Below are positions 12,461-44,465 of a stretch of DNA of 64,000 bases, in pieces (within the stretch, counting starts at the first letter, position 1; the number at the start of each line of letters is the position of its first letter). Source of the DNA: Candidatus Helarchaeota archaeon (GTDB lineage: Archaea; Asgardarchaeota; Lokiarchaeia; Helarchaeales; RDOG01); the NCBI GenBank assembly GCA_029838215.1, contig JALGVI010000001.1, positions 1 through 64,000 of the forward strand, read 5' to 3'. Made by a program: the position numbers and the translations under genes. The notes under the pieces are model-generated. The model did no database searches and was not told where the DNA came from. It worked only from the letters and a program-made list of their open reading frames with translations.

Positions 12461-12473
12461 TATTTATATATAT
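12461..12473 (+). promoter_or_regulatory. Putative TATA box for the PadR-led operon
   Basis: tatttatatatat immediately upstream of the tandem TACGTA sites and 70-80 bp upstream of the PadR coding region. Confidence 0.5.
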
Positions 12474-12517
12474 TTGCTACGTATTCGCTACGTAGCCGTT
12501 ACGTAGTCACTACGTAG
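12474..12517 (+). promoter_or_regulatory. Four tandem 11-bp units with TACGTA palindromes (putative operator array)
   Basis: ttgCTACGTAt|tcgCTACGTAg|ccgTTACGTAg|tcaCTACGTAg; TACGTA at 12478, 12489, 12500 and 12511, spacing exactly 11 bp. Confidence 0.8.
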
Positions 12518-12589
12518 CGGCAGGTGGCAAAAAGGTGACTTGAAATCGCGAAAATTGATTATTTAGTCTTAGCAAGTTTAAAAAATGGA

Positions 12590-13036
12590 GTGAAAAACGG
12601 TAAGGAAATAATGTCAGAATTATACACGGAATTCGGATTCATTTGGCAACCAAAAACTTCAATGGTATATCCAGCATTGCGAAAATTGAAAAATCGTGGT
12701 CTAATAAGAGAAAATAAAGAAAAATCTGATGAAATTACAAATGTAGGGACATATTACGAGTTGACGGAAAAAGGTTTACAAGAATTAAAAAAATTTCAAA
12801 GACCCTTTCATCCTCCACTTCCCTTTTTTCAAGGTCGTAAGTTCAAACCTTTATCAACTCCATTTAAAAGATTTCATTTTTGGGAAAAGTTTGTTGATTT
12901 TGAAACGATGATAGAGCATTTAATGACATATAGAGAACATTTAATGAAAGAACTAGAACGTATCGATAAAAAAGTACGAGAATTAAAAGAAAAGAAAGAG
13001 TATCAAGAAGCCCTTCAAGATATTGATATTCAATAG
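12590..13036 (+). CDS. PadR-family winged-helix transcriptional regulator (N-terminus probably extends upstream to about 12540-12557)
   Basis: KNGKEIMSELYTEFGFIWQPKTSMVYPALRKLKNRGLIRENKE...YYELTEKGLQELK. Upstream in-frame codons encode KIDYLVLASLKNG, the conserved PadR N-terminus. Confidence 0.9.
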   Translation: MKNGKEIMSELYTEFGFIWQPKTSMVYPALRKLKNRGLIRENKEKSDEITNVGTYYELTEKGLQELKKFQRPFHPPLPFFQGRKFKPLSTPFKRFHFWEKFVDFETMIEHLMTYREHLMKELERIDKKVRELKEKKEYQEALQDIDIQ

Positions 13037-13047
13037 GTGATCCTTCA

Positions 13048-13572
13048 ATGGACTTGAATAAGGATAGATCAAAAACGCTGTTAAAAAGTGAAGTTTTGAT
13101 AAAAAAAAGTTTTTCATCCGGAATCATTACCGATTTTTATCTTCAATTGGTTCCAAAGCTAATGGAAAAGCATAAAGATGAGCAAAAAGTTGCTGAAATC
13201 TTGAAACTTTTTGGAAGACGACTAATAATAAGATTTCAGGATTATTGGACCCCGGAAAGCAGGGATGTTGAGAGAATATTAAGAGAAACGTACAGGATAA
13301 TCATGAGAAGAAGTATGGGAAGAGTTATTTCAGTGGAAAAAAATCGGAAATGGATATTGGTAGATCCTGGTTGTATCTTGTGTGGAGACGGGACAAAAAC
13401 ATCTAATGGCTTGCATTATTGTGTTCTCATGGCAGGGTTATTTGAAGGGGACATAAATCATTTGAGAGAAAAGGAGGGATTTGAACATCTTCCTAAAATA
13501 AGGGCTAATACTATCGCATCAAGGTCTAATGGAGATAAGGTTTGCAAGCACGAAATCATTATGGTGGAATAG
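13048..13572 (+). CDS. V4R-like / small-ligand-binding Cys protein (first of a paralogous pair)
   Basis: 174 aa; DPGCILCGDG...HYCVLMAGLFEGDINHL...PKIRANTIASRSNGDKVCKHEI fits the C-terminal V4R-type layout (CxxC, later Cys, GDxxCxxxI). Confidence 0.55.
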   Translation: MDLNKDRSKTLLKSEVLIKKSFSSGIITDFYLQLVPKLMEKHKDEQKVAEILKLFGRRLIIRFQDYWTPESRDVERILRETYRIIMRRSMGRVISVEKNRKWILVDPGCILCGDGTKTSNGLHYCVLMAGLFEGDINHLREKEGFEHLPKIRANTIASRSNGDKVCKHEIIMVE

Positions 13573-13574
13573 AA

Positions 13575-14198
13575 ATGTTTAGATTTCTGGAACGAGAATT
13601 TAAAGACTTTTTAGGAGACTTAGGAAAAAGATTTGTTAGACGAACCCAGAAAAAAATGAATACATTATTCCTGAGCATCATGATCTTGGAATATACTCGA
13701 TTATCAGTGGAATTTTTGCATGATGGAAATTTGGAAGCCGCTTTAGAAGATTTTCATAATACGGGTAAAAATACTGGGAAAGGGATTATGGACGAGCATT
13801 TGGATGCAGCAAGTTATGTTTTATCAAAATCATTAAGCGAAACTCCTCGAATGGCTAAAATTTTTTGGTATATTGCAATGGGTGAGGATATACCAAGAAA
13901 AAACATTCGTTTCATTCCAAAAGGGACTGAGGGCAATGAGTATGACATACTTACTTGGACGTTCGAGAATTCTTGCATCTTTTGTGCAGCCTCAACAGAA
14001 GAAAAGGACATCGATATCAATAAAGAAAGCATGGGAAATCAGACTTGGGGTGGACAATGTGCAGGGATCTTTGAATCCATAATGCAATCTGTCCAAGACT
14101 ATGTTAGAAATGATTATGAGGTAAAAGTAGAGGAAACAAAATGCATTATGAGAGGCGACTCAGAAAATGAATACAAGATGTATTTCATTCCAAGATAA
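13575..14198 (+). CDS. V4R-like / small-ligand-binding Cys protein (second of the pair)
   Basis: Start at ATG 13575 (MFRFLEREFKDFLGD). C-terminus NSCIFCAASTEEK...GGQCAGIFESIMQSVQDYVRNDYEVKVEETKCIMRGDSENEYKMYFI fits the V4R layout. Confidence 0.6.
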   Translation: MFRFLEREFKDFLGDLGKRFVRRTQKKMNTLFLSIMILEYTRLSVEFLHDGNLEAALEDFHNTGKNTGKGIMDEHLDAASYVLSKSLSETPRMAKIFWYIAMGEDIPRKNIRFIPKGTEGNEYDILTWTFENSCIFCAASTEEKDIDINKESMGNQTWGGQCAGIFESIMQSVQDYVRNDYEVKVEETKCIMRGDSENEYKMYFIPR

Positions 14199-42363: not shown

Positions 42364-43593
42364 TCAATTGAATGGTTTTCCTGGAAGTTTTAATTCATTT
42401 TGAAGGTTCATTAATTTCAAAATAGTTGGAACGAAGTCAATGAATTCTCGGTGTTCTTCATTTTTGGTAGAAGTGTTTTGCCCATCCTGACAAAGGAAGA
42501 ATGGATCTAATTCGGAATTCTTGACGGGATAACCGTGCATTCCCTTGATAAAATTTTTACCTTGATAATAATTAGGGGTTAGGAGCGTTCCCTTATCCGC
42601 TAAAAAGATTAAATTTCCATTTCGATCACGCATTTCTGGAGAAAAATTTAAGTGATACTCCTGCAATTCATCACCATTTAACACGTGTCCTCCTTTTAAA
42701 TTTGATAATTCTTCAGCAATTTCGCCAATCACCCTTGTATCTCGCACAAAAAATCGCCACAAAATAGAATCTAAGAAAGAATCAAATTTTGATCCGTGTT
42801 TTTTCCTAAGAGCTTTTAATATTGGTTGAACGGGAAGAGCTTGAGTTACATTCGTCATGCCGTGGTCCGAAAATACGATAAATGAAGGATTTTTAAGCAT
42901 TTTCTCAAAACCCTGCATAATATATTTGACTTGAGCATCAGTTTTCCTCAAGCATTCACGAGTTTGTCTTGAGCGTGTTCCCGTTCGATGTTGAACACCA
43001 TCTAAATTAAAAAACCTAATGAAATAAAAATCTCTTCTTGTATTGCTTCCCAAAATCTTCATGACTGCTTTCATCGTATCGGAGTCACCGTGAACGTTGG
43101 GGAAGTTTACAATTTCATATGAAATCTTATTTACGCGAAATACATCAAAGAGAGTCTTGACACGTCCCAAAGCACCCTCTTGATCAATCCGCTTTGGCAT
43201 GGCAAACGCAAATTTATGCAATTCATCCCATGGAATTAACGTGGTGCGAGGAAACTGTGAAAATCCATATATTTTCTTTGTAAGATGGCAGATAGGGGCG
43301 GTTAGGATTTTTCGGAGAGTCAAGTTTTTGATCTTGTCGAGAAAAATGTCCTGAATCCCGGTCATTAATGGATTTTTTGTCCATTGAAATTCTGAATGAG
43401 CAGGAGAATATTGAAAATCTGTCCAAATACCGTGAATCTCAGCATGTTGACCTGAAAATAATGTCGGTTCAATCCCTCGAAATGATAATAAGGGAGTTAT
43501 CCTTCCAAATATTGCTTTTTCAGAAAGATTGGAAAGGAAGGGAGTATTTTGATGCGTGATCTGCGAAAAACCCATTGCATCTACCATGATCAT
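42364..43593 (-). CDS. Alkaline phosphatase superfamily (type I phosphodiesterase/nucleotide pyrophosphatase-like) protein; start may be CTG at 43611
   Basis: 409 aa; MIMVDAMGFSQITHQNTPFLSNLSEKAIFGRITPLLSFRGIEPTLFSGQHAEIHGI, FIRFFNLDGVQHRTG, FIVFSDHGMTNV, KGMHGYPV. Confidence 0.88.
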   Translation of the reverse strand: MIMVDAMGFSQITHQNTPFLSNLSEKAIFGRITPLLSFRGIEPTLFSGQHAEIHGIWTDFQYSPAHSEFQWTKNPLMTGIQDIFLDKIKNLTLRKILTAPICHLTKKIYGFSQFPRTTLIPWDELHKFAFAMPKRIDQEGALGRVKTLFDVFRVNKISYEIVNFPNVHGDSDTMKAVMKILGSNTRRDFYFIRFFNLDGVQHRTGTRSRQTRECLRKTDAQVKYIMQGFEKMLKNPSFIVFSDHGMTNVTQALPVQPILKALRKKHGSKFDSFLDSILWRFFVRDTRVIGEIAEELSNLKGGHVLNGDELQEYHLNFSPEMRDRNGNLIFLADKGTLLTPNYYQGKNFIKGMHGYPVKNSELDPFFLCQDGQNTSTKNEEHREFIDFVPTILKLMNLQNELKLPGKPFN

Positions 43594-43607
43594 TACAAGA
43601 GCTTTCC

Positions 43608-44465
43608 TCAGTGCTTCACGCCTCCTAAAATGATCTTTCCGTGCATGTATCCGGCAAGATAAGAAAGTGAAAGAAAAGCATCCAAGATATTATAACGTCG
43701 TTCTTTAGTAATGAGTTTTGGTTTGGCAACTTGTCTTGATTTAGAAAGCCCGCCATCATATGCTCTTGTCATTAAATTCTTAAATTTGGTTCGTTCACGC
43801 GGAATAATGTGAGAAACAACTACTTTTGGATCGTATATCACTTTATAAAATCCTCTTAAGCGCAAGCAATAATCAGTTTCTTCTCCGCCGAGTAATGTTC
43901 CAGGAATTCGTCCCAAGTTCGTATCAAATTTTCCAATGTTATCATAAACTTCTTTCTTCAAGGAGAAATTACACCCAATGACTTTCTCCGTGACCATCAC
44001 GTGATCACCTAAATCCATGAGTGATAACCATTCTCGCGCTAACACGGATTTCTTCACGATACTTGAAACGCGTTCACTCCAAATGGGCTGAATTTTACCA
44101 CCGACTATTCCAATTTTTTCATCGTTAAGGAATCGTTCTCTGATCCTCCCAACCCAATCATTTCTAGCAATGGCATCATCATCAATAAATGACACGATCT
44201 CGCCTTCGGCACTTTCAACACCAGTATTTCTTGCATGACTCAATCCCAGACGATCTTCATAAACAATCTTGAATTGAAACTCATCTTGCAGTTTCAAAAT
44301 CGTTTCACGATTCCTCGAATTTGTGATCACGATAACCTCATCGGGAGAACAGGTTTGATCCTTCAGGGATTGCAAGCATTGCTTCAAGAGCGGACCGCAC
44401 GAGAGAGTTGGAACGCAAACAGAAATTGATGATTCAGTCATTGCCAAATTTAACCTCAAACACAT
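43608..44465 (-). CDS. GT2-family glycosyltransferase
   Basis: 285 aa; ISVCVPTLSCGPLLKQCLQSLKDQTCSPDEVIVITNSRN, GLSHARNTGVESAEGEIVSFIDDDAIARNDWV, LGGEETDYCLRLRG. Confidence 0.92.
   Translation of the reverse strand: MCLRLNLAMTESSISVCVPTLSCGPLLKQCLQSLKDQTCSPDEVIVITNSRNRETILKLQDEFQFKIVYEDRLGLSHARNTGVESAEGEIVSFIDDDAIARNDWVGRIRERFLNDEKIGIVGGKIQPIWSERVSSIVKKSVLAREWLSLMDLGDHVMVTEKVIGCNFSLKKEVYDNIGKFDTNLGRIPGTLLGGEETDYCLRLRGFYKVIYDPKVVVSHIIPRERTKFKNLMTRAYDGGLSKSRQVAKPKLITKERRYNILDAFLSLSYLAGYMHGKIILGGVKH

Follow-up and report, generated by a model that had tools for sequence, protein, structure and literature searches.

Near-cognate start codons in a Helarchaeales genome: a PadR-family gene probably read from AUC, and the start of the aIF1 gene in Asgard archaea

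The gene for a PadR-family winged-helix regulator, located on the forward strand at 12545..13036 of the window (the whole 64,000-nucleotide stretch of DNA analysed here, part of a 3.6-Mb Helarchaeales (Asgard) MAG made up of 170 contigs), encodes a conserved first helix for which no usable ATG, GTG or TTG is available. The gene is probably intact and translated from a near-cognate AUC at 12545, giving a product of 163 codons that contains the PF03551 domain. Other genes of the same genome appear to begin in a similar way, among them the gene for the initiation factor aIF1, whose near-cognate start is conserved and is the aspect that most deserves to be followed further.

The start region of the PadR gene

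The in-frame codons that follow the TGA at 12536-12538 are CTT GAA ATC GCG AAA ATT GAT TAT TTA, continuing with GTC TTA GCA AGT TTA AAA AAT GGA up to the GTG at 12590..12592 (forward strand). As they include no ATG, GTG or TTG, there is no canonical start 5' of this GTG, and the codon reading of 12530-12592 agrees with the original prediction on this point. The GTG is the first canonical codon and the start that would be chosen mechanically, but is judged to be internal. When translated from the ATC, the protein matches PF03551 with 47.0 bits, above the curated cut-off of 27, with residues 8-83 aligned to profile positions 1-75, whereas the product of the GTG start matches only from position 11, with 42.3 bits, and loses profile positions 1-10. 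This bears out the earlier claim that the GTG costs the protein its conserved N-terminus. PadR chains in the PDB also align across the region upstream of the GTG, with only six residues preceding the aligned position in 6lg2, and on the evidence of these alignments the upstream codons are coding. No PadR orthologue above about 30% identity, close enough for its start codon to be compared, was found among 60 relatives and the genome contigs. The tail of the protein, where the dimerisation helix of a PadR regulator would be expected, is rich in K and E past residue ~110.

The upstream region contains a Shine-Dalgarno (SD) sequence, AAGGTGA, at 12532..12538 (forward strand), which had been noted as resembling a ribosome-binding site; the GGTGA within it (12534-12538) base-pairs with the 3' end of the 16S rRNA, GGATCACCTCCT, which was located in the genome and confirms the SD. 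The TGA of this GGTGA is also the in-frame upstream stop of the PadR open reading frame, so that just two codons lie 5' of the ATC. The proposed start codon, ATC at 12545..12547 (forward strand), follows GGTGA after a spacer of 6 nt. No other near-cognate codon lies at SD distance, the ATT at 12554 being 15 nt from GGTGA. In 1.12 Mb of the genome, SD-to-ATG spacings peak at 4–7 nt (37, 51, 31 and 21 cases at 4, 5, 6 and 7 nt respectively), a peak that is missing from internal ATGs used as a control, and the spacing of the PadR ATC falls within it. By eye, no SD 5-mer is present at the usual distance from the GTG at 12590.

In the proposed mechanism, GGTGA would position the 30S subunit with AUC 12545 6 nt downstream, and the AUC would pair imperfectly with the initiator Met-tRNA, presumably at lower efficiency than a canonical start. 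With methionine as the predicted first residue, the product would be (M)AKIDYLVLASLKNG..., in which the first helix is complete, and the N-terminal peptide expected from this reading is AKIDYLVLASLK. No initiator tRNA came up when the sampled contigs were scanned for tRNAs.

Near-cognate starts elsewhere in the genome

The wider use of such codons was surveyed in 1.68 Mb of the genome by counting codons at SD distance 5' of the first canonical start in open reading frames that lack an SD at their first canonical start. ATA, ATC, ATT and CTG were observed 24 times at a spacing of 3–8 nt against 11.3 expected, with a p value of 0.00028 that is approximate because neighbouring codons of one open reading frame were counted separately; in the coding-like subset the corresponding numbers were 13 and 5.1 (p=0.0012). 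ACG, AAG and AGG, which are also one error away from ATG, were found 6 times at the same spacing (5.4 expected), and there was no near-cognate excess in three other spacing windows within the 1.68 Mb. A smaller set of flanks from other Asgard genomes gave 3 against 2.3 expected, without a clear excess. The survey supports the near-cognate reading of the PadR start, and suggests that a small share of the genes in this Helarchaeales genome would begin at AUA, AUC, AUU or CUG, preceded by a good SD.

Individual genes point the same way. MoaA (L172:109-978) would start at ATA, from which its profile match begins at residue 2; a canonical codon is not reached until residue 45, past the cluster motif CNLNCSYC, and most MoaA orthologues have an ATG no more than two codons from the position of the ATA. 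AcnX (L103:11850-13028) has an ATT start with a PF04412 match from residue 2; no canonical codon occurs before residue 23, and the alignment with orthologues, at 65-68% identity, extends back to residue 1. MoaA, AcnX and aIF1 (with starts at ATA, ATT and ATA respectively) would all lose essential residues if translated from a canonical start. A KH protein (arCOG04150, L099) with a CTG start is conserved from residue 3 in Candidatus Helarchaeota LW55_61 (G001), a same-family MAG from a sister genus. Like MoaA, AcnX and aIF1, this KH protein and an archaetidylinositol-phosphate synthase (L170, ATA) have no canonical start available for an essential N-terminus. The support is weaker for the synthase, an AbrB/PhoU regulator (L058, ATA), a glycosyltransferase (L168, ATC, INILYIGKYPPIQGGVS) and a phosphoribosyltransferase (L093, ATT).

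The window itself contains a second candidate, a phosphodiesterase/nucleotide pyrophosphatase gene at 42364..43611 on the reverse strand, in which a CTG (43611-43609) lies 9 nt after AGGAGG and, as part of a CTGA, overlaps the stop codon of the gene before it. PF01663 matches from position 1 with 78.9 bits when translation begins at this CTG, compared to position 4 and 75.9 bits from the first ATG, and the gene probably starts at the CTG. Several further matches were set aside: for DNA polymerase B (L090, ATA) the G001 orthologue is consistent with a canonical start at residue 12, while an SPFH gene (L131, ATC) and the ATT/ATC matches at L084, L101, L111, L165 and L065 are unproven or rejected, with profile support absent or a poor coding score.

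Gene callers generally accept only ATG, GTG and TTG as starts, and the N-termini of near-cognate genes are therefore lost in Asgard annotation. The losses sometimes include essential residues, such as the cluster cysteines of MoaA and the N-terminal cysteines of aIF1.

The aIF1 start codon across Asgard archaea

The aIF1/SUI1 gene of this genome (L102:4706-5002, reverse strand) has an ATA start behind AAAGGAG, and the ATA is common to G001. Comparison of 56 Asgard loci from independent assemblies (L181-L210 and L241-L266) shows that 29 have no ATG, GTG or TTG in the interval from the upstream stop to the conserved Cys, including 23 of the 31 loci from the window's own class; the remaining loci have ATG, GTG or TTG. 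CTG is seen in some genomes other than the Helarchaeales and Lokiarchaeal ones. Such a pattern is poorly explained by assembly error. Among the 12 unique sequences of Lokiarchaeal aIF1 (from 19 loci), 11 have ATT and one has ATC as the putative start codon, with variable codons on its 5' side and conserved ones on its 3' side. The AUU is ~9 nt from a GTGA, a spacing that is not ideal. Lokiarchaeal leaders (for example L188, L200 and L204) have in common AAAGGTTGTGA, located ~9 nt 5' of the AUU, which contains a start-stop pair in the form of a TTG with a TGA immediately after it; this element could be an unusual SD or else a minimal upstream open reading frame.

A weak or rare start on the gene of a start-codon fidelity factor has parallels in other domains, and aIF1 resembles them in this respect. 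The bacterial infC gene, which encodes IF3, starts with AUU. What infC shares with the genes described here is a near-cognate AUN start behind an SD, and the aIF1 product, too, discriminates against such codons; unlike infC, PadR does not encode an initiation factor, and aIF1 is not homologous to IF3. Feedback in Asgard aIF1 is proposed by analogy. aIF1 is described as destabilising initiation complexes on non-AUG mRNA (PMC6237735). Its eukaryotic orthologue is eIF1, whose own gene has a weak start signal that self-limits eIF1 synthesis: a poor AUG context lets eIF1 limit its own production (Ivanov et al. 2010, as cited in PMC6237735). In the eukaryotic case as outlined there, the weakness lies in the context around an AUG reached by scanning, whereas in Asgard aIF1 the codon itself is near-cognate and is placed by an SD.

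By the same analogy, a near-cognate start would let aIF1 restrict its own synthesis and would couple other near-cognate genes to the aIF1 level. It is possible, and we put it forward tentatively, that near-cognate starts form a regulatory layer in Asgard archaea, in which the conserved AUU, AUC, AUA or CUG start of aIF1 would render its synthesis self-limiting and genes of the PadR type would follow the aIF1 level. Were the aIF1 start regulatory, weak starts would control a start-codon fidelity factor in all three domains, and the autoregulation of infC and eIF1 would have its archaeal counterpart in the Asgard archaea, the closest lineage to eukaryotes, where it is open to direct test. No paper describing an archaeal aIF1 with a near-cognate start was found in the open literature.

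Two further systems can be compared with the PadR gene. The AtubA tubulin of Kariarchaeaceae was given an ATT start in a 2026 paper on similar evidence, with a conserved first strand located 5' of the called start and, as in PadR, a near-cognate codon at a plausible distance from the ribosome-binding site; where this start is described, it concerns a single gene, was assigned for cloning and comes with no genome-wide or clade-wide claim (PMC13394414). Streptomyces sigR, which has a GTC start and is repressed by IF3, is likewise a regulatory gene that begins at a rare codon and has its translation under the control of a fidelity factor, but is bacterial, uses GTC and has been shown experimentally (PMC5472188).

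Alternative readings and the surroundings of the PadR gene

The original prediction had offered two explanations for the missing start, a homopolymer indel or a non-AUG start at a codon such as ATC or ATT. The second is the supported one, narrowed down to the ATC at 12545 on account of the distances from the SD, and is backed by the other genes of the genome and by aIF1 across many independent Asgard assemblies; the indel is disfavoured. Both sequence features on which the indel was based, a TTG at 12540..12542 (forward strand) in another frame and an AAAA run at 12551-12554, read as stated, and a single inserted A would join a recognised start codon to a plausible N-terminal sequence (MKSRKIDYLVLASLKNG), the missing base being either an assembly error or a real frameshift. 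The TTG is, however, only 1 nt past GGTGA, compared to the genome peak of 4–7 nt, and a run of four As is short for a homopolymer error. Since the near-cognate pattern recurs in other genes and aIF1 shows the same across many assemblies, the indel is quite improbable. It is also unlikely, if a little less so, that the true start is an ATG and that the ATC arose by a base error, by strain variation or through a recent mutation weakening the gene. With a 6-nt spacer and Ala as the second codon, an ATG in this position (12545) would make an ideal start, and the locus is known from one MAG; yet random errors should produce ACG, AAG and AGG equally, whereas the excess is confined to ATA, ATC, ATT and CTG, the other 162 PadR codons are open, and the near-cognate codon of aIF1 is kept across genera.

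That the GTG at 12590 is the real start of a PadR with a shortened N-terminus is very unlikely: it is the first codon acceptable to a gene caller and its product remains recognisable to PF03551, but the first helix would be gone along with the start of the profile, and initiation would take place without an SD at normal spacing while a well-placed SD ~50 nt upstream was left unused. Readthrough of the TGA at 12536 from a GTG at 12524 (MAKR*LEIAKID) was rejected, as the TGA is part of the SD and the other genes have no need of readthrough.

Upstream of the PadR gene, the sequence includes a TATA-like element, TTTATATATAT, at 12463..12473 (forward strand), which is a putative promoter, and four TACGTA palindromes with an exact spacing of 11 bp at 12478..12516 (forward strand), in the interval that separates the TATA-like element from the SD. 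Within the 3.6-Mb genome the arrangement TACGTAN5TACGTA is confined to this site, and the array is a plausible candidate for an operator to which PadR would bind to regulate its own gene. The array overlaps the expected transcription start. Adjoining PadR on its downstream side, at 13048-14198, are two conserved genes that belong to no Pfam family and contain the cysteine motifs CILCG and CIFC. They are 69% and 78% identical to their counterparts in Ca. Helarchaeota LW55_61, where a different gene lies upstream of the pair, in the place of PadR.
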